In this document: piece by piece, positions 36,697 to 47,188 of the stretch
How the letters are laid out: each line of letters begins with the position of its first letter
Numbering within the stretch: the first letter of the stretch is position 1
Assembly: GCF_017368815.1 (NCBI RefSeq)
Contig: NZ_JAFNME010000001.1
Location: 124,001 to 188,000, forward strand
DNA from: Comamonas denitrificans
GTDB lineage: Bacteria > Pseudomonadota > Gammaproteobacteria > Burkholderiales > Burkholderiaceae_C
DNA: 64,000 nt
Direction: 5' to 3'
Program-made: the position numbers and the translations under genes
The notes under the pieces: generated by a model
The model's database searches: none
What the model was told of the DNA's origin: nothing
The model's input: the letters and a program-made list of their open reading frames with translations, nothing else

Positions 36697-37004
36697 GAAA
36701 TTTTATACGGTAGTTTGCTAATTTTTAGCATAAATCTTGACTTTTGACGCAGAACTACGTTGTGTTGCTTGTTCGGCTGTTATGGATTCCACGCGACGCC
36801 AACAGTATGAAAAATTGAACAGATCGCTTGCTGTAGGGACAACACTGCATATCGACACAATGTCTGCAATTGGCCGGAACTACGAGTTCGCGGCGACGCC
36901 CGGTAGCCCCTTCAGCACATGTGGACGCAAGCCCGGCTGGTATCTGGCAACAGGTGGGCTCGCGAGCGCATTCTGCAGGTCCCTCAACTCGATGGGAGAC
37001 CATC
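36697..37004. other. Leader region of the recombinase gene
   Basis: This 308-base stretch contains no gene I can support. A frame beginning MDSTRRQQYEKLNRSLAVGT at 36783 stays open, but it shows no family likeness and no ribosome binding site. The promoter of the recombinase should be here, on a sequence that changes from AT-rich to GC-rich near 36880. Confidence 0.35.
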
Positions 37005-37628
37005 ATGGAAAATGCAGACAACACCACTCATCGCGAGCCGTGGAACAAGGGCAAGATCGTCGGACAGAAGGCGCCGTTCAAGCTCAAGGACATCTGGGCG
37101 CTGCGTGTCCGTCTCGAGATGGAGGGCCGAGTGCGCGAACTCGCCCTGTTCAACCTGGGCATCGACAGCAAGCTGCGTGGCTGCGATCTTGTCGCCCTGA
37201 GGGTGCGGGACGTGTCTCATGGTGATAAGGTCGCCTCGCGCGCCATCGTCATGCAGCACAAGACCCAGCGCCCGGTACAGTTCGAGATCACCCAGGCCAC
37301 TCGCGATGCGTTGCAGGCGTGGATCAAGCGGGCTGGGCTGAAGCAGGAGGACTTCCTCTTCCCCAGCCGACTTCACGGTTCACCTCATCTGGGCACTCGC
37401 CAATACGCCCGGATCCTCGGGCACTGGGTCGACGAACTGGGGCTGGAGCGCGCCGACTACGGCACGCACTCGATGCGTAGGACCAAGGCGACGCTGATCT
37501 ACAGGCGCACCAAGAACCTGCGTGCCGTGCAATTGCTCCTGGGGCACTCCAAGCTAGAGTCGACCGTGCGATACCTCGGCATCGAGGTCGATGACGCCCT
37601 TGAGATCTCCGAACAGACGGAGATCTGA
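37005..37628 (+). CDS. Short tyrosine recombinase/integrase
   Basis: 207 aa from the ATG at 37005, with GGGAGA 7 bases upstream. The protein is essentially the catalytic domain without a core-binding N-terminal domain. Catalytic residues are all present: Arg in SKLRGCDL (about 57), Lys in QHKTQRP (about 86), HSMRR (about 155), LLGHSKLEST (about 180) and Tyr in VRYLGIE (about 189). Such short integrases are common on mobile elements of proteobacteria. Its location just upstream of the restriction-modification-like genes suggests that it moved or marks that island. A 12-bp inverted repeat follows the stop. Confidence 0.85.
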   Translation: MENADNTTHREPWNKGKIVGQKAPFKLKDIWALRVRLEMEGRVRELALFNLGIDSKLRGCDLVALRVRDVSHGDKVASRAIVMQHKTQRPVQFEITQATRDALQAWIKRAGLKQEDFLFPSRLHGSPHLGTRQYARILGHWVDELGLERADYGTHSMRRTKATLIYRRTKNLRAVQLLLGHSKLESTVRYLGIEVDDALEISEQTEI

Positions 37629-38125: not shown

Positions 38126-38419
38126 GTGACCTACGAAGATTTTCTTGTTGAGCTGAACAAGGCTGGCCTCAGCGTCAAGCGTTTTGCTGACTTAATCGGC
38201 ATGCAGCCTAATTCGGTTTCCAACAACAAGAAGAGGGGCGAGGTCCCTGTCCATCTCGCACTGATCGCCACTCTCCTCGCTGAAATGTCCGCCCGTCAGA
38301 TTAATTACGAACCCGTCATGGCACGAGTGCAACCGCTCAAGAAACGGGCACGTGGTGCTGCAGTGGAGGGGCGGTTTGCAGGCGATAAGCAGACCACGCT
38401 GGGGTTCGTCAATGAATGA
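38126..38419 (+). CDS. XRE-like HTH regulator of the restriction-modification unit
   Basis: About 97 aa from a GTG at 38126 (MTYEDFLVELNKAG). The HTH is explicit: GLSVKRFADLIGMQPNSVSN, followed by NKKRGEVPVHLALIATLLAEM. The C terminus is basic and ends 51 bases before the methylase gene. Small HTH proteins of this kind act as control or repressor proteins for restriction-modification operons. An ATG at 38087 would add 13 hydrophobic residues (MWFNLIKSLFLHS), which is less likely. No Shine-Dalgarno clearly favours either start. Confidence 0.65.
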   Translation: MTYEDFLVELNKAGLSVKRFADLIGMQPNSVSNNKKRGEVPVHLALIATLLAEMSARQINYEPVMARVQPLKKRARGAAVEGRFAGDKQTTLGFVNE

Positions 38420-38470
38420 GCTTCCAAGCGAGCGCTCACTGAACCGCGCGAAGACCTCGGCACAACCCGG

Positions 38471-41400
38471 ATGGCACGGTTCATGAGTGCAGAGATCGAT
38501 TCCCGGTGGGTCAGCGCCCTGGCACTCGACCGGCGTCGGGTGCCCGAGTTCTATGCTGCGGGCAGCAGTGTCGGTGCAGGTGCGCATGCCGACGCGATCA
38601 ACTTTGTGCTGGACGAATTGGGGCTGTCGGCTGTCAGTTGCATCAACGGCGTTCCAACGATTGGATTTCTAAGCGATCCAAACGTTTCCGTGGAACATGT
38701 GAATAAGCTCCACCGAATCCTGTGGAACCAGGGCTTGATGAGCCTGCTGCTCGTCATTCGCGATGACGAGCTGACGGCATACTCACTGGTACAGCGGCCG
38801 TTGTACCGCGACGAGGGGCGTGGCAAGGATCCGCGGCTGGTCAAAACACTCAACCTGTTAACTGACGCACTTGCGCTGCGCGAACTGCTCGATGCTACGG
38901 AGTCTGGACGGTTCTGGTTCGAGAACGACGGTTACTTTAATCCAGACAACCGGGTCGACAACGTCCTGCTGGTCAATTTGCTCGCAGCGTTTCAAGGGCT
39001 CAAGGACGAACTGGGCGCAGAACCGGCCCAGGCGCTGTTGATGCAGACGATGTTCGTAGCCTACCTGGAAGACCGGCAGATCATCGGAGAGGCCGTCTTC
39101 CGTGTCGCGTCACAGGATCGCTATGGAAGTTTCCAGGAACTGCTCGACGCCGGAAAGCCTGCACCTTTTGAGAAACTGTTTGCTTGGTTGCATGAAGCAT
39201 TCAACGGTAACCTTTTCAAGGCGCCGTGTGCCTTCGAAACCGGGGACGGACTACCGCCAAAGCTGAATCCCGCTCATTTGGGCGTGCTCGCACGGTTTCG
39301 TCATGGCCGCGAGGACATGGCCACTCAGCAGCTTCGGTTTTGGGGCTATGACTTCCGATACATGTCGATCGGCCTGATCAGTGCGGTCTACGACCGATTT
39401 CTGAAGGAAGAGGCAGCCAAGAAGAACGCGGATGGAGCGTTCTACACCCCGATGTTCCTGGCCGACATCGTCGTCAACCAGCTCTGGTGCGAGCTGACCG
39501 ACGATCAGAAGGCCAATGGCATCTATTGCGATCCGGCATGCGGTTCCGGCATTTTCCTGGTGCGGTTGTTCCAGCGCTTGGTAGCGCATCACTGCCAAGT
39601 CAAAGGCAAGCGACATGCCACCTGGGCAGAGCTCAAGGGCGTCGCCAGTCGACTGCACGGCGGTGACATTAACTCGTCGGCAGTGCGTGTCGCAGCTTTT
39701 TCACTCTACATCGCGCTCCTTGAACTCTCTAGTCCTTCTGATCTGCCCAGACTCATCAAAGCCGGGAAATTGTTGCCACCGCTTTACGGCAAAACGCTGC
39801 ATCCCGGAGCGGACTTCTTCAGCGTCCAAGAGGTGCCAACGTATGATGTGATCATCGGAAATCCCCCTTGGAAGGGACGCGCAGGATTGGCGACGACCGC
39901 GCAGAACTGGACCATGACTAACGGGTATCTCCTACCCGCCAAAGACATCGCATGGGGGTTTGTGTGGAAAGCACTGGAAAGCGTAAAGGCCTCTGGGCTC
40001 ATAGCGTTCCTGCTACCCGCAATGGGAACCCTGCACAACACCGACAGCCAAGGCGCACGCAAGATGTTGCTGGAGCAGTCCAGAATTCGGCGGATCATCA
40101 ATCTGTCGGATCTGTGCTTCCAGCTATTCGATGGAGCGGCGCGGCCCACCGCCTTTGTACTTTACGGTCCGCAACAACAGAAGACCCCCTACCGATTTGA
40201 GTACTGGGTGCCCAAGGCTGACCTCAACCTTCGACTCAAACGACAGGTGACGCTCTCTCGGGCGGATCGCCTGACGCTCCGCTCCGACCTGGTCGCAAGC
40301 GATCCAACTGTGTTCAAGCGGCGGCTGTGGACGCGCGCTCCAGAAGAGCGGCTTCTGCAGTATCTCCGGACAATGCCTCCCTTGTCATCATTTGTTCATG
40401 TGTTCAAAGAGTTCAAGCGCGCCAAGTTGGAATTCAACCGCGACGAGCATTGGGTGATTGGGCAGGGCTTCCAACCAGCACAGGAGGATCGCCTGGATGA
40501 TGATGACTACCAGACGACTACGGCAGAGATCGTGACCCGTCTACCGTACTTGGACGCGAGCCAGTTTCAGGCCGTTGCACTTCCGAAGGTAGAGAGCGCG
40601 CCAAGGCGTGAGTCGCTCGTGCGTCGGGCCGGCTTCGAAGCCGGGTTCCGCGGACCTCACATCATCATTCCACAAGGGGTAGAGCGCGCTGTTGGGCGTG
40701 TGCGAGCAGCGTTCAGCAATCAAGACTTCGTGTTCCAGCATTCGCTTCAGGCGATGACAGTGCCACCTAGACAGGCGCACAGAGGGATGCTGCTCACAGC
40801 CGTCCTGAACAGCAGCCTAGCCGCTTGGTTCTATTTCCATGCCACCGCAAACCTCGGTGCCGATCGAGCGAAGGTTCATCAGGGTGAATTGCTCAAACTT
40901 CCATTCGATGTCCCCGAGAACATGCCGGATCCGGAGAAGGCACTGAAGGCGGAACGGGAACTCGTCGTACTGATCAAGCGCGAGATGGCGAACGCGCAGA
41001 AGTTGCTTGTCGCCCAAGATGACGTCTTGAGCAAGATTGACCACCTAGTGTTCGATTACTACGGTCTCGACGTCAGTGACGTGGCCATCGTCGAGGACAC
41101 GGTTAACGCCATCATCCCTGCCATGCAACCCAGGCGCAGCGCCGGGTTGCAACCCATCTGGGCTGCAGCTTCGCCAGTTCAGCGCGAGGCCTATGCGACC
41201 ATGCTGTGTGAAGCCCTCTCGCCACACTTCCGCGCGCCCGTCAGTGCATCGTTGGTGGCGCGCTCCACAGATGTTGCCGTGTTGAAGCTGATGATCGGTG
41301 ATGATGCGGTTGCGCCGTACGCAGAGAACACCGCTAGTGAGTTCAACGAATTCCTGCCACCGATCACCGCTAAGCTGTCTATGGAAATGCCAGGCAACGT

Positions 41401-41578
41401 GCAACTGATACCTGATCTGCGAATTGTGGATGGCCGCGACATGTATCTCGTGAAGCCCACCGCGGTTCGGCACTGGCTACGATCCACTGCACTGGCGGAC
41501 GCAGAGCAAATCGCCGCGGAGTTGGCGGCTGCTGCTGCCCGCCATGGAAAGGAAGGGGGGCTTCGTGCTCGCGGGTAG
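38471..41578 (+). CDS. N6-adenine DNA methylase, Eco57I/type IIG-like
   Basis: 1035 aa. The SAM-binding motif I is DPACGSGIFLVRLFQR (about 354), DINSSAVRVAAFSL fits motif II-III, and the catalytic motif IV is NPPWKGR (about 463), typical of N6-adenine methylases. The N-terminal 300 residues are a helical region with NPDNRVDNVLLVNLLAAFQ. The C-terminal 400 residues resemble a target-recognition domain (GFQPAQEDRLDDDDYQ, then VFQHSLQAMTVPPRQ). No PD-(D/E)XK motif is obvious in the N terminus, which differs from type IIG enzymes that also cut; a separate nuclease-like gene follows. ATGs at 38471 and 38483 are equivalent candidates. Confidence 0.85.
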   Translation: MARFMSAEIDSRWVSALALDRRRVPEFYAAGSSVGAGAHADAINFVLDELGLSAVSCINGVPTIGFLSDPNVSVEHVNKLHRILWNQGLMSLLLVIRDDELTAYSLVQRPLYRDEGRGKDPRLVKTLNLLTDALALRELLDATESGRFWFENDGYFNPDNRVDNVLLVNLLAAFQGLKDELGAEPAQALLMQTMFVAYLEDRQIIGEAVFRVASQDRYGSFQELLDAGKPAPFEKLFAWLHEAFNGNLFKAPCAFETGDGLPPKLNPAHLGVLARFRHGREDMATQQLRFWGYDFRYMSIGLISAVYDRFLKEEAAKKNADGAFYTPMFLADIVVNQLWCELTDDQKANGIYCDPACGSGIFLVRLFQRLVAHHCQVKGKRHATWAELKGVASRLHGGDINSSAVRVAAFSLYIALLELSSPSDLPRLIKAGKLLPPLYGKTLHPGADFFSVQEVPTYDVIIGNPPWKGRAGLATTAQNWTMTNGYLLPAKDIAWGFVWKALESVKASGLIAFLLPAMGTLHNTDSQGARKMLLEQSRIRRIINLSDLCFQLFDGAARPTAFVLYGPQQQKTPYRFEYWVPKADLNLRLKRQVTLSRADRLTLRSDLVASDPTVFKRRLWTRAPEERLLQYLRTMPPLSSFVHVFKEFKRAKLEFNRDEHWVIGQGFQPAQEDRLDDDDYQTTTAEIVTRLPYLDASQFQAVALPKVESAPRRESLVRRAGFEAGFRGPHIIIPQGVERAVGRVRAAFSNQDFVFQHSLQAMTVPPRQAHRGMLLTAVLNSSLAAWFYFHATANLGADRAKVHQGELLKLPFDVPENMPDPEKALKAERELVVLIKREMANAQKLLVAQDDVLSKIDHLVFDYYGLDVSDVAIVEDTVNAIIPAMQPRRSAGLQPIWAAASPVQREAYATMLCEALSPHFRAPVSASLVARSTDVAVLKLMIGDDAVAPYAENTASEFNEFLPPITAKLSMEMPGNVQLIPDLRIVDGRDMYLVKPTAVRHWLRSTALADAEQIAAELAAAAARHGKEGGLRARG

Positions 41579-42203
41579 CCCTGGAGTCTGGATCGCACAT
41601 TTCCGAGACCTTGGCGAGCAGATGGCCGAAGCGATTGAGGATGCATGGCCGGTCTGCATCAAGCCTTTGCAATCTAGGAAGGGCGCAATGACGCATGAGG
41701 ATCACATCACAGTGCATCTCGTAAAGGCTCTTAGAAGGTCCAAGAAAGTACCAGGCCGCATTGAGTACCAGTATTCCTTGCAAGAAGAGCACGCCGACGG
41801 CTACGTGACGACGCCAAGCAGCATTGACTTCGTATTAACCGTGGGGGACGATGAAGAAGTCTATTTGGCCTACGAATGCAAGCGACTGAATGTGATCTAT
41901 GGGACCCGAGTCCGCAACTATTGCGGGCCGTACGTTGACGACGGCCTGATGCGTTTTGTATCTGGTCAATACGCCAAAGGGCTTCCGATGGCGACGATGA
42001 TCGGCTATGTCATGAACGGCAATAACGCCACTGCGCGCCAAGGACTACGCCGGGTGATGAAGCTGCGCACTGTTGCCCTACGACTGACCGCTGAGCAAGA
42101 TCGTCTCTCAATAGCAGGGCGCCCCATGCGATTCGCTTCCACGCACGATTGCAGTTCCGGGCACAGTATGAGTGTCGAGCACCATCTCTTGCCCTGGCCG
42201 TAA
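41565..42203 (+). CDS. Putative PD-(D/E)XK restriction endonuclease
   Basis: About 212 aa. A nuclease-type motif can be read: SSIDFVLTVGDDEEVYLAYECKRLN. The Asp (about residue 88) sits on one strand and the ECK on the next, the usual D-x(n)-ExK spacing of PD-(D/E)XK enzymes. No other family feature is certain. The GTG at 41565 follows GGAAGGGGGG and lies inside the methylase end (14-base overlap); ATGs at 41544 and 41622 are alternatives. Its overlap with the methylase gene is the main support for a restriction partner. The last 20 residues look unlike the rest and may be read-through past an old end. Confidence 0.6.
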   Translation: MLAGSPGVWIAHFRDLGEQMAEAIEDAWPVCIKPLQSRKGAMTHEDHITVHLVKALRRSKKVPGRIEYQYSLQEEHADGYVTTPSSIDFVLTVGDDEEVYLAYECKRLNVIYGTRVRNYCGPYVDDGLMRFVSGQYAKGLPMATMIGYVMNGNNATARQGLRRVMKLRTVALRLTAEQDRLSIAGRPMRFASTHDCSSGHSMSVEHHLLPWP

Positions 42204-43042
42204 TAGTTCACTAGACCTTCGAATACAACCTGGGCGAATTTCATGGTTCTGTGATTCCCCTTACATAAATCTTGGCTGCGAAATCCAATGACTGCTTGGT
42301 GCGAGCTAGTGTGAGCTCGACCTTCAGACGCTAAGGACTGCAATCACAGCACAGGGCGCGCATTCATTGACGATGCTTGAATGGCGACATCGGGTCGATT
42401 GGCGACAGTCGCAAAAGGCCATGAGCAGACATCCGTAGTGCACCTCCGAACTACAGCTTCAGGTTGGGAGCTGCCGGCCGCTCGTACACCCATGAATGGA
42501 CGGCTGCCAAGAAGAGCGAGAGCGGCCATTCGAGCGCGGCCCGGCTCTCCGGTCAAATCTTAAGACCTTATTCAGCCAGCGTAGTCACTCATGGACAGTG
42601 GCGGCGAGAAGGCCCATCTTCATGACCTATTAAGTCCGCCCTGAACCGTACCGTTCTCAGCCGCAGGCCAGTCGGTGCTTGTGAAATTCAATGTCCCTCA
42701 CACTCAGTTGCTAAGGCCATTTTTCCGGAAGATTCCAAGCCTTTGAACCACTCTCTCTTCAAGGACTGCTTGACATCCTCGACCTTCAAAGAAGCTTTTT
42801 ATGTGTACGCTAGATCATCTATTCCACACCCACTTTATGCGCTTTGAGTACCCGATTCATGATCCCCTCATGGGAAATCTCATCGTAGTAGCCACGGCCA
42901 ACTTGAGCCTCATAAAGTGGCATTAGCTCATTAGCTGTCGCATCCCGGACGATTGCATAGATAAAAATCGCTATCCGCTGTTTATGGCGCGATCCGTGCT
43001 GCGGGAGTTGATAGAGTCCCTGCCATCAACCAGGAGCCTGTA
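42204..43042. other. 839-bp region without a supportable gene
   Basis: Both strands were read: no frame longer than about 70 codons shows family likeness or a ribosome binding site. The GC content is mixed (about 50-60%). It may be eroded mobile DNA between the restriction-modification unit and an IS481 remnant that begins at 43043. Confidence 0.4.
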
Positions 43043-43165
43043 ATGCAAATCTCTCTGCACAAGAATGCACGCACCACACCTGCCGTGCGCGCCGAGATCG
43101 CAGCCAGCAGTGAGTCAGCCCGTGTGCTGGACTTTTGGAGTCCTGCGAGGCATACAAGCGTATAG
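43043..43165 (+). pseudogene. N-terminal remnant of an IS481-type transposase
   Basis: The frame MQISLHKNARTTPAVRAEIA is the start of an IS481-family transposase, preceded by CAGGAG. Family likeness stops after about 29 residues (SSESARVL), and the frame ends at a TAG after 40 codons. Only the extreme 5' end of the gene remains, fused to unrelated sequence. Confidence 0.65.
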
Positions 43166-43366: not shown

Positions 43367-43513
43367 TTCGCGCCTGTCCCGCCCGGTGCGTCCGCTGCTC
43401 AGGATGCCCCGGCCCCCGGTCGTGTATCGTGTCAACTGTTCCCCCTACCTCTACTTTTGACTTACTCAGGAATCAAAGAGGGCACTTCAACGCTCTTCAA
43501 TGCCAGAAAAACC

Positions 43514-45151
43514 ATGCACGAAATCATTTGCCCTCATTGCAAGAAAGCGTTCAAGATCGACGAAGCTGGCTACGCAGATATTCAAAAACAGGTCCGTGAC
43601 AGTGAGTTCGACAAGCAGCGCGAAGAGCTGGAAAAGCAGTTGCACGAGCGGCTGCAACTGGCGGAGCAAGAGAAGCGCAACGCCGTCGCGCTGGAGCAAG
43701 CCAGGATGGCCGGTGAATTGACGAGCAGTGCTGCGAACAAGGATGCCGAAATACAGGATCTAAAAAACCAGTTAGAGGCCGCTGCGTTGGCCAACCGGTT
43801 GGCGTTGGCTCAGGCCCTTAGCGGGCTTGAAAAAGAGCGTGATGGGCTGCTCAATCAACTGACCCAGGCGCAGAGCGAGCAGCAAAGTGCCGAACAATTG
43901 GCCGCCACACGGCTACAGGCTGAACTGGAGAAAACCGCTGCAGCCAAGGATGCGGAAATCCAGAGACTCAAGGCCCAGCTCGACGGCGAAGCCGTTGCGC
44001 GCCAGTTGGCCGTAAACACCGCCGTCAGCGATGCACAAAAACAGCGCGACGAGCTGGCGCAACAGCTGCACCAGACCCTGCTTGAAAAAAAAGCCCAGGC
44101 CGATCTGGCGCAGGCCCGACTGGAAAGCGAACTGCAAAAGGCGGCGACCAGCAAAGAGCTGGAATTGCAAACTCTGAAATCTCAGCTGGACGCGACGTCA
44201 GTCAGCCACCAATTGGCGATCACCGAGGCCGTGGGCAAGGTGCAGCAAGAGCGTGACACGTTCAAAAACCACCTGGATCGCGCCGCGCTAGAGAAGGAGC
44301 TGGCCGAAAAATCGCTCAAGGACAAGTACGAAACCCAGTTGAAGGACCGCGACGAGGCTATTGAGCGCCTGCGCGACATGAAGGCCAAACTCTCGACCAA
44401 GATGGTGGGCGAGACGCTGGAGCAGCATTGCGAAATCGAGTTCAACCGCATTCGCGCCAGCGCTTTTCCGCGTGCTTATTTTGAAAAGGACAACGACGCC
44501 AGCAGCGGTAGCAAGGGCGACTTCATTTTCCGTGACAGCGACGATGCGCAGACCGAGATTGTCTCCATCATGTTCGAGATGAAAAACGAGAACGACCAGA
44601 CGGCCACCAAGAAAAAGAACGAAGACTTCTTCAAGGAACTGGACAAGGATCGCACGGAAAAAGGCTGTGAATACGCGGTGTTAGTCACGCTACTGGAACC
44701 TGACAACGAGCTCTACAACAGCGGTATCGTCGATGTCTCGCACCGCTACCCCAAGATGTACGTGGTACGACCGCAGTTTTTCATCCCCATGATCACATTG
44801 CTGCGCAATGCGGCCATGAACTCGCTGCACTACAAATCCGAGCTGGCCTTGGTGAAAGCACAGAACGTGGACATCACGCGCTTTGAGACCCAACTGGAAG
44901 ACTTCAAAACCTCTTTTGGCCGCAACTGGCGTCTTGCGTCCGACGGTTTCGAGGAAGCCATCAAGCGCATCGATGAAGCCATCAAGGATCTGGAAAAGAC
45001 TAAAGACGCGCTCTACAAGTCGGCCAACAATCTGCGCCTAGCCAATGACAAAGCCGAAGATCTCACCGTCAAGAAGCTGACACGTGGCAACCCGACCATG
45101 GCCACCAAGTTTGCTGAACTGAAGAACGAAGGCACCGCTGAGTCAAATTGA
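43514..45151 (+). CDS. DUF2130 protein with three 69-residue coiled-coil repeats
   Basis: 545 aa. A CPHCKKAF zinc-ribbon-like start leads into a long coiled coil. Within it three repeats share the phase KDAEIQ(D/R)LKxQL: they begin near residues 76, 145 and 214 ([36 protein letters not shown]), exactly 69 residues apart. The C-terminal DUF2130 domain begins at about residue 300: [51 protein letters not shown] and [16 protein letters not shown]. This has a nuclease-like D...E-x-K arrangement (GDFIFRD, FEMKNE). The last residues (ENEGTAESN-like tail) run into the truncated IS3 element. Role unknown; the domain is common in accessory regions and could be a defence or recombination protein. Confidence 0.8.
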
Positions 45152-45732
45152 CACGTAGTCGAAGGCCGGTAACAGACCAGTTGCGGCCGCTCGCGCCCAA
45201 TGTGCTGGAGCAGCAGTTCTCGGTGGAAATGCCCAACCAGGCGTGGGTGACGGACATTACCTACATCCGCACTCACGAAGGCTGGCTGTACCTGTCGGTG
45301 GTTATTGACCTGTTCTCGCGTCAGGTGGTGGGTTGGTCCATGGGCAACCGCATCGACACCCAGTTGGCCTTGGACGCCTTGCTGATGGCCGTCTGGCGGC
45401 GCAGGCCCAGCAAGACGGTGCTGGTTCATTCCGACCAGGGCTGCCAATTCACTAGCCGAGAGTGGCAGGACTTCCTCAAGAGCCACAAACTGCAGCCCAG
45501 CATGAGCCGACGGGGCAACTGCCATGACAACGCTGTCGCAGAGAGTTTCTTCCAGTTGCTCAAACGTGAGCGCATCCGCCGTAAAACCTATGCCACCCGG
45601 CAAGCTGCCCGCAGCGATGTCTTCAACTACATCGAAATGTTCTATAACCCCAAACGTCGTCATTCAAGTGCTGACGGCCTGCCGCCTGCCGAGTTTGAGC
45701 GGCGTCACTTCCTGAGGCTCCGAGGCGTCTAG
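45148..45732 (+). pseudogene. IS3-family transposase OrfB, 5'-truncated
   Basis: About 194 codons remain with the full DDE catalytic core: Asp in WVTDITYIRT, Asp in VLVHSDQGCQFTS and Glu in DNAVAESFFQLLK. Also present is HSSADGLPPAEFE near the end. The first 90 or so residues of OrfB and all of OrfA are absent, so it cannot transpose on its own. It opens with a non-ATG codon. Confidence 0.85.
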
Positions 45733-45750
45733 GAAACCATGGGCGATTCA
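45148..45750 (+). mobile_element. 3' remnant of an IS3-family element (IS51-like)
   Basis: It contains most of orfB. The left end is missing: DUF2130 sequence runs directly into it. The right end is recognised by the inverted complement of TGAATCGCCC (GGGCGATTCA at 45741-45750), a typical IS51-group tip, after which KfrA-like coding sequence resumes. Confidence 0.7.
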
Positions 45751-45751
45751 A

Positions 45752-45963
45752 GGTTGGCGGCAGAAGCAGCCGGTGCTCGCGCCTCCTTGGCCGAAATTAC
45801 CAGGGCGCACCAGGCGCAATCGGTCGAGCTACAGCAAGCTCTTCAGGCAGTTGCACAGCACAAGGCCGAAGCTGGCACCTTGCGTGAACTGGTGGAGCAG
45901 TTCAGACCGACGCAGAAATCTTTTCGTAAAAAGCGTGGTGGTGAAGCACCAGAGGTCAAGTGA
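45752..45963 (+). pseudogene. C-terminal remnant of a KfrA-like plasmid protein
   Basis: After the IS3 tip an Ala/Glu/Gln-rich coiled-coil frame runs to a TGA: LAAEAAGARASLAEITRAHQ, then QALQAVAQHKAEAG and TLRELVEQFRPTQ. This matches the tail of KfrA-type plasmid coiled-coil DNA-binding proteins in composition and ending. The N-terminal DNA-binding part is absent. The call rests on pattern likeness only. Confidence 0.45.
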
Positions 45964-46087
45964 GCAGGCCTCTGGCGAGTCAAGGGTGACGCGTCGATAC
46001 AAGAAGGAATAAATGATGATTCTTTAATAACCGAAAGGCTTATGAGTCAAAACTGGCCGTATCCTGGCTTGCCCTCATATAGAGGCG

Positions 46088-46696
46088 ATGAACGAGACCC
46101 TCGCATTTGCTCACTACGCAAGACGAGCCAGAAATGTGCTTAGATTCCTCAGGAAAAGTGCGCCAATCGATATTTTCGAGAGCATTTCCACTGACGATCA
46201 TCGGGCCCTGGCGCGAGTCAGCGATATCGTTGAGGGCAAGCTCTCCTATCCGCGTCAGAACGGACTGGCCGTTGCACTGCGCGAGCTGGGGCGCATTGAG
46301 CGCACGCTGTTCATACTGGATTGGCTGCAAAGCGTGGAGCTGCGCCGCCGCGTGCAGGCCGGACTCAACAAAGGCGAGGCGCGCAACGCGCTGGCCAGGG
46401 CGGTGTTCTTCAACCGACTGGGCGAAATCCGCGACCGCAGTTTTGAGCAACAACGCTACCGGGCCAGCGGCCTCAATCTGGTAACGGCGGCCATCGTGCT
46501 TTGGAACACGGCCTATCTGGAACGGGCAACCAATGCTTTGAACGGGCACGGCAAACCGGTAGACGAGACGCTGTTTCAATACCTGTCACCGCTGGGGTGG
46601 GAACACATCAATCTGACCGGCGATTACCTCTGGCGCAGCAGCACCAAGATCGGCGCGGGAAAATTCAGGCCATTGCGACCGCTGTCCCCGACTTAA
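46088..46696 (+). pseudogene. C-terminal fragment of a Tn3-family transposase (TnpA)
   Basis: About 200 residues of a Tn3-family TnpA tail: [72 protein letters not shown] and [18 protein letters not shown], ending at GKFRPLRPL. Full TnpA is about 1000 residues, so more than three quarters is missing. The mer genes begin directly after it on the other strand, indicating that it is the end of a mercury transposon. Confidence 0.85.
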
Positions 46697-46905
46697 CCGC
46701 AGCACCCACGCTGCTGCTGGATCGGCGGGCATGGCACCGATCCGAACGAACAGAACACGCAGCAATCGCCCGGCTTTGGACGCAGCAGCGTATGGCAGGC
46801 CGGGCACTCGTAGTAGAACTGGCAAGCGTCCGTGGGCATGGTTTCCTTTTGTGCGTGGCCGCAGTGCGGACAGGTCAGCACGGATTCGAGGATGACAGTG
46901 CTCAT
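46693..46905 (-). CDS. GDCCVxC-domain protein of the mer module
   Basis: 70 aa with a zinc-ribbon-like [18 protein letters not shown] and the signature [16 protein letters not shown] near the end. The family sits in mercury-resistance clusters, next to merP or merT; its function is unknown, but the Cys pairs suggest soft-metal binding. It is the last mer gene, 7 bases after merP. Its stop overlaps the tnpA fragment end. Confidence 0.88.
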
Positions 46906-46912
46906 CGTGGCG

Positions 46913-47188
46913 TCACTTCTGCACGGTGGACGGATAGCCTGCGTTCGTCGTGGCCTTGGTCAACGCCTCCGGCTGGGCCTTGTCGGCGTCATAGGTGACG
47001 ATGGCCGTTTTCCTGTCGAAATCGACCTTGACGGCGCTCACTCCGGGCACTTTCTCCAGCGACTTCTTGACTGTGATCGGGCATAGCTCGCAGGTCATGT
47101 TCTGCACGGCCAGCGTGACGGTTTTCGGGGTAGCGGCCAGCACGGTGAGCGGTATGGCTGCCAGCAGAGCAATCAGCAGTTTGCGCAT
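46913..47188 (-). CDS. merP: Periplasmic mercury-binding protein MerP
   Basis: 91 aa. A signal peptide (MRKLLIALLAAIPLTVLAA) is followed by a HMA fold with QNMTCELCPITVKKSL, the Hg(II)-binding Cys pair. MerP hands periplasmic Hg(II) to MerT. It lies 12 bases after merT and has GGAG upstream of its ATG. Confidence 0.95.
   Translation of the reverse strand: MRKLLIALLAAIPLTVLAATPKTVTLAVQNMTCELCPITVKKSLEKVPGVSAVKVDFDRKTAIVTYDADKAQPEALTKATTNAGYPSTVQK

Follow-up and report, generated by a model that had tools for sequence, protein, structure and literature searches.

A conserved gene pair of a Type IIG-like methylase and a small predicted PD-(D/E)XK nuclease as a probable split, motor-less restriction-modification enzyme

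Exchange of the specificity region is a habit of restriction systems, and an HTH gene placed upstream is reminiscent of the controller proteins of such systems. In Type IIG enzymes, the nuclease (R) domain is part of the same chain and lies at its N terminus, according to reviews (PMC3874165, PMC4081073). At the locus analysed here, a methylase of comparable domain make-up is followed by a separate small protein, and we consider it probable, from sequence comparisons and structural models, that the two constitute a split, motor-less restriction-modification enzyme, in which a chain combining methylase and specificity functions (M~S chain) locates its target, methylates it and guides the separate nuclease. 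A literature search, which reached few subscription papers, retrieved no paper on such a pair of a methylase and a small nuclease.

The window, i.e. the whole stretch of 64,000 nucleotides of Comamonas denitrificans DNA that was analysed, carries three open reading frames (ORFs) at this locus, all on the + strand, as are the features within them. These are a small HTH-like regulator ORF (38126..38419, with a GTG start at 38126 and a frame open from ATG 38087); a gamma-class N6-adenine methylase of 1035 residues with a fused specificity domain, i.e. the M~S chain (38471..41578), assigned from Pfam, PADLOC and a structural model; and a downstream ORF with a D...ECK motif (41565..42203), which encodes the predicted PD-(D/E)XK nuclease subunit of 212 residues, assigned from its model, fold matches and conserved site. 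The start of the nuclease was placed at GTG 41565, which is backed by close relatives and gives an overlap of 14 nt with the methylase; a longer ORF from 41544 would encode 219 residues. The original prediction, which had been made from the letters and a list of ORFs, had described this three-gene layout, and all of its ORFs, the DPACGSG, NPPW and D...ECK motifs, and the overlap between methylase and nuclease are present.

The downstream protein was modelled with AlphaFold2 from 13 sequences (pLDDT 85.4, pTM 0.85), and the model displays a classic PD-(D/E)XK core consisting of helix 45–59, strands 65–71, 86–92 and 100–108, helix 120–132, and strand 142–149. This alpha-beta-beta-beta-alpha-beta arrangement bears the acidic residue on strand 2 and the (D/E)xK signature on strand 3 that are characteristic of the superfamily, as D88 of the PD motif (41826..41828) resides on the second core strand and E104 and K106 of the ExK motif (E104-C-K106; 41874..41882) on the third, with a further acidic residue, E45 (41697..41699), on the first core helix. 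E45, D88, E104, K106, Y123, F131, M145 and H206 are invariant in 47/47 aligned pairs, and when nine further plasmid copies were added and the set was realigned, all of these residues held in 56/56, except for Y123 (51/56). The D...ECK motif is thus beyond chance, the two acidic residues and the ExK pair being the same in all aligned relatives.

Fold comparison of this model using VIA-align gave OkrAI as the best match (Z 8.1, rmsd 4.0, 146 aligned residues), followed by rows starting at Z 6.8, and the rows also include MunI, PspGI, BglII and EcoRV. Most of the leading rows are PD-(D/E)XK enzymes, with a few exceptions such as Rep15; middling Z-scores are common with VIA-align, and the weight of the comparison rests on the pattern of rows plus the motif. 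A Foldseek search against the PDB and a viral library returned nothing at an E-value of 0.001, and its top two rows (E 0.03–0.05, low TM-score) were SfsA and SduA, both PD-(D/E)XK proteins. At the sequence level, the window protein had no match in Pfam, PADLOC or NCBIfam and no meaningful similarity to solved structures in the PDB, and 15 of its relatives had no match in Pfam or PADLOC at E 0.1; two PHROG families were touched at about E 0.07, by one relative each. An already-known nuclease family was discarded as an explanation because of the lack of matches in Pfam, PADLOC and NCBIfam. Taken together, the 212-residue protein is predicted to be a PD-(D/E)XK nuclease, and the original proposal of such a fold on a separate small protein agrees with both the AlphaFold2 model and the VIA-align matches.

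The methylase matched the Pfam families N6_Mtase (2.8e-17), Eco57I (5.7e-14) and MmeI_Mtase (1e-06). As in gamma-class N6-adenine methylases, the SAM-binding motif I (DPACGSG; 39530..39550) precedes the catalytic motif IV (NPPW, an instance of NPP(Y/F/W); 39860..39871), followed by a C-terminal recognition domain. The columns of D354, G358 and G360 of motif I, and of N464 and P466 of motif IV, are constant in 47/47 relatives, and that of P465 in 45/47. With the structural model (pLDDT 78.6, with residues 669–719 under 50), VIA-align produced matches to CamA (Z 28.1), MmeI (25.9), DrdV (23.6) and BrxX (23.1), most rows covering residues about 160–870, and the core also matched BpuSI and HsdM structures. 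PDLC03623 of PADLOC, a model that bears the name 'Type IIG restriction enzyme-methyltransferase', matched the window methylase at 1.9e-89 and 16/16 family methylases of alignment A4 (best E 0), and the family is thus already filed as Type IIG by a defence database. The best score of the window methylase against the NCBIfam BREX profile (PglX) was 45.7 bits versus a cut-off of 400, and that against MAD2 was 24.3 bits versus a cut-off of 720. The Pfam scan of the locus proteins revealed no helicase domain.

Alignment with DrdV begins at model residue 7 for structure 7lo5_C and at residue 160 for 7lvv_A, so that the first 150 residues of the methylase (38471..38920), which form an alpha/beta domain, stand at the place of the DrdV nuclease domain. 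Across residues 1–160 of the 47 relatives, no column is acidic in 70% of the sequences and none is lysine in 60%. A [DEQ]xK triplet within residues 1–150 is absent from 29/47 and present in 18/47, where it is scattered over no conserved column and occurs twice in one clade. An active nuclease within this domain was rejected for this lack of conserved residues in the 47 relatives, and its place relative to DrdV suggests a decayed nuclease domain. At the other end, the C-terminal domain (residues 870–1035; 41078..41575) lies outside the CamA match and contains conserved columns (R1000 in 47/47, A1011 in 46/47, W1002 in 44/47 and D1010 in 42/47), which makes it a candidate docking site for the nuclease. 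The original prediction would have lost ground if the methylase matched a characterised single-chain Type IIG enzyme: the match to the PADLOC label weighs against it, but a label is not a characterised enzyme, and the missing in-chain catalytic site weighs in its favour.

Conservation of the methylase–nuclease pair elsewhere was borne out in plasmids, genomes and viral contigs. The core set from these sources comprises 47 aligned pairs, of which 45 are distinct (L096–L098 are identical). Excluded from it were loci with a broken or partial methylase (L016, L017), a methylase in two ORFs (L055, L058), a nuclease cut by the contig end (L025), a start codon that was not found (L029), no nuclease (L023, L030, L031) or a contig ending within the methylase (L027), together with L052, which is the L006 contig; plasmid copies L114–L122 were added later and lie outside the set. 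The two genes overlap in 43 of the 47 pairs (28 by 4 nt, 10 by 14, 3 by 20, and one each by 8 and 1) and are 1–2 nt apart in the remaining four, with the start nearest a 4-nt overlap taken among the possible nuclease starts. The methylase lies directly upstream of the nuclease in 33/33 genome loci with flanks (L039–L044, L052–L058, L084–L103), the upstream methylase being split into two ORFs in L055 and L058. Five nuclease-positive genomes of the samples of the G506 and G672 families, and one of the window's genus, fall outside these 33. Open frames around the nuclease matches of the genome searches extend to 369 codons at most, and none is fused to a 1000-residue methylase. Finally, the divergences of methylase and nuclease are correlated (r 0.964 over 45 pairs, reached in 0/5000 permutations), a pattern that, as far as divergence can tell, shows co-inheritance and not contact.

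The distribution of the pair was assessed by several searches. A scan of GTDB contig proteins yielded five relatives of the small protein (56–73% identical). Plasmid records comprised three with a nuclease match and 89 with something methylase-like; 17 of the latter were examined, and a 214–249-residue ORF matching the nuclease profile was found behind the methylase in 17/17, that of L121 matching the widened profile only (1.7e-15). Among these 17 are conjugative plasmids of rhizobia and roseobacters, a Ti plasmid from Agrobacterium, and one plasmid of the IncP-1 group. Among viral contigs, three loci were found via the nuclease and 12 via the methylase; of the 12, 10 match the methylase profile and have downstream sequence, and 7 of these 10 carry the nuclease, which is absent at L023, L030 (588 nt left after the methylase) and the distant L031. 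Seven phage records gave distant methylase matches only. In genomes, counted at E 0.001 or better with the query genomes included and over samples that overlap, a single-protein query detected the nuclease in 3/369 of the class (two of the three weak), and an alignment query in 6/398 of the phylum, 9/385 of the class of G506, 20/298 of the family of G506, and 7/105 of the family of G672. L009, a weak single-protein match, contains 3.2 kb matching neither the methylase nor the nuclease profile. The window's genus contributed 2/53 genomes, namely that of the window and G1504, whose nuclease relative (L123) is distant (E 1.5e-10).

Some copies have features of their own. In pBel61 (L011:13066-17193), the pair is followed by a 1376-residue protein of the Eco57I type, which weakly matches HSDR_N and is a single-chain candidate beside the split one. 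The IncP-1 plasmid pRSB223 (L016:8836-12638) has its methylase frame broken into two ORFs and its nuclease ORF whole, whereas in the Ti plasmid pTi_CFBP2407 (L120:3853-7444) the pair is found near a SIR2 protein. A Sphingobium copy is annotated as 'type I endonuclease-methyltransferase fusion protein'.

The genes around the pair are less constant. The HTH-like protein of the window has no Pfam match, and relatives of it (61–81% identical) precede the pair in L002–L005 and L010; the label 'HTH regulator' thus draws mostly on resemblance and position. When the upstream proteins of four relatives were scanned, that of L024 touched HTH_31 at E 0.039 and those of L015 and L043, which are of another type, touched MerR_1. 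Over 48 loci, two profiles assigned an XRE-like upstream gene to 11 and a MerR-like one to 15, which left 22 with neither; the first two counts are lower bounds, as near relatives such as that of L012 fall just outside the profiles. As the upstream regulator varies, the fixed gene trio of the original prediction was given up in favour of the pair, which is the conserved unit.

The same prediction had the unit delivered by a short tyrosine recombinase of 207 residues (37005-37628; Phage_integrase, 3.7e-18). Searches by tblastn at 1e-5 detected no relatives of it in the flanks, of about 1–9 kb, of the 47 other loci, and DNA relatives of window positions 36962-37628 (72–83%) occur at many sites across the genus as well as on plasmids; the recombinase was therefore rejected as the delivery vehicle and is a dispersed element of its own. 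The sole co-occurrence with the pair that was seen is on plasmid pRSB223, which carries resistance genes plus a recombinase like that of the window near the pair. In a DNA search of the genus that scored five candidates per genome, 38087-42203 had no match outside the window's genome among the matches listed, a profile search being the better test of the presence of the nuclease. Just to the right of the pair, a sequence of about 200 bp (42932-43130) recurs at numerous sites in the genomes of this genus, and 43457-47188 encodes, in a row, a coiled-coil protein (DUF2130), fragments of IS3-type and Tn3 transposases, and a heavy-metal-binding protein (HMA). The stretch around the pair has the appearance of a patchwork of remnants of mobile DNA.

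Evidence on how the target is set came from close relatives. Among 64 pairs compared at a methylase identity of 0.65 or more, two stand out. Identity between the methylases of L004 and L005 is 0.91 over the whole length but drops as low as 0.40 within residues 661–730, where L004 still shares 0.82 with L010, a more distant relative; for L043 and L056, the overall value is 0.88 and the minimum, within residues 621–740, is 0.31. At the DNA level, identity in the swapped stretch goes down to 0.50 (L004/L005) and 0.45 (L043/L056), with flanks near 0.85–0.9. Column-weighted simulations reached the excess of L004/L005 or L043/L056 in 0/5000, and that of seven control pairs, which we chose ourselves, in 212 to 2782 of 5000. 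Other close pairs showed smaller methylase dips, which lie mostly at residues 811–860, with a few at 641–710, and were outside the simulations; no exchange was detected between the window copy and L002. The swapped stretch corresponds in the window to the section of the specificity domain that varies (about residues 640–727; 40388..40651), and its place in the fold suggests that it sets the target.

The nucleases of the swapped pairs are 0.87 (L004/L005) and 0.88 (L043/L056) identical and contain no such block. Their changes are mildly clustered in both pairs (a degree reached in 55 and 66 of 5000 simulations), with identity lowest in the tail, and this clustering would make a partial adaptation of the nuclease to its target possible. 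The simplest reading of an exchange without replacement of the nuclease would be that the methylase chain determines the target and the nuclease goes along with it.

Computation thus provided both genes, their coupling, a predicted nuclease fold with an invariant site, a methylase N terminus that lacks a conserved active site, and specificity exchange without nuclease replacement. In the mechanism that we propose, the specificity domain of the methylase would recognise a DNA site, whose adenine would be methylated by the M~S chain. On unmethylated foreign DNA, the chain would instead direct the PD-(D/E)XK subunit, which may have no specificity of its own and would form a complex with the methylase, to cut near the unmethylated sites. 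The N-terminal domain of the methylase may have been kept as a scaffold after its putative decay as a nuclease, and the DNA-binding protein encoded upstream, like controller proteins elsewhere, probably governs the timing of expression. The outcome would be protection against phages or incoming plasmids.

Other arrangements were weighed against this one. In an ordinary Type II system, the 212-residue protein would act on its own as a site-specific endonuclease and would itself read the sequence recognised by the methylase. Its size and fold fit Type IIP, with the five VIA-align rows named above, and the HTH gene upstream recalls controller proteins; but a single nuclease family remains paired with a single methylase family even where methylase identity is as low as 22–28%, and the nuclease is not displaced when specificity is exchanged, whereas an orthodox endonuclease would need to switch its target simultaneously. 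We therefore hold this arrangement to be unlikely. Similarly, though a shade less plausible, the pair could be a defence system like PglX/BREX or MADS, in which the methylase marks self and a nuclease effector acts otherwise than at a fixed place beside the recognition sequence, whether by nicking, by degrading replicating phage DNA or by causing cell suicide. The alignment of the methylase with BrxX at the above Z-score and, weakly, with the BREX and MAD2 models would be in keeping with this; however, its NCBIfam scores fall far below the cut-offs, and no gene named PglZ, Brx or MAD occurs in the 17 annotated plasmid stretches, for which the table is incomplete. Some of these stretches carry AAA ATPases. 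A solitary regulatory or plasmid-maintenance methylase accompanied by a repair or mobility nuclease, without restriction, appears very improbable: the best fold match is CamA, an orphan methylase, and many copies reside on plasmids, but the active site of the nuclease is invariant, its gene is coupled to the methylase in 47/47 pairs, and specificity exchange is typical of restriction systems.

The split restriction-modification enzyme is thus the reading that we retain. Of the two-component system with a separate nuclease that was originally put forward, the pair, the predicted fold and the conservation held, and the fixed trio and the delivery by the recombinase did not. On balance, and with caution, we favour the view that the pair represents a large class of two-subunit, ATP-independent restriction enzymes that has gone unrecognised in proteobacteria and their mobile DNA, with a dead nuclease-like N-terminal domain and the nuclease in trans, in which one swap in the specificity region changes methylation and cutting at once; such a class would in effect be a 'motor-less Type I' or a split Type IIG, a description to which we lean to the same degree. 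If true, a family filed as single-chain Type IIG is a two-subunit system whose nuclease is named by no library searched; genome surveys would miss the cutting half and misjudge such methylases. It would also offer a natural arrangement with a separate nuclease and no motor between Type I and Type IIG, with an easily reprogrammed specificity.

Compared with Type IIG enzymes (MmeI, DrdV, BpuSI, Eco57I), which cut at a fixed distance under stimulation by SAM, the pair has a methylase with the same gamma-class core and C-terminal specificity domain and likewise dispenses with an ATP-dependent motor. The differences are a nuclease that is encoded separately and translationally coupled to the methylase, and an N-terminal methylase domain without a conserved catalytic site. 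Since nuclease, methylase and specificity functions are not united in a single chain with an N-terminal nuclease, the pair is a new variant, like Type IIG in its domains, and not a member of Type IIG. With Type I systems (HsdR/HsdM/HsdS) it shares a methylase core resembling HsdM structures and, under the proposed reading, a separate restriction subunit that would depend on the methylase and specificity part. Unlike Type I, the M and S functions are in one chain, and instead of an HsdR with an ATP-dependent translocase the partner is a 212-residue nuclease with neither a motor nor a Pfam domain. The N6 methylase is akin to PglX/BrxX of BREX and MAD2 of MADS, with a fold match to BrxX and weak profile matches to both; the scores remain far below the cut-offs of the NCBIfam PglX and MAD2 equivalog models, and the coupled small nuclease sets the pair apart from these systems. 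Lastly, the 212-residue protein has the core fold and the E, D and ExK residues of small PD-(D/E)XK nucleases such as OkrAI, PspGI, NucC, McrC and SduA, from which it is distinguished by the lack of meaningful sequence similarity to solved structures and by an exchanged specificity region that sits in the partner methylase.
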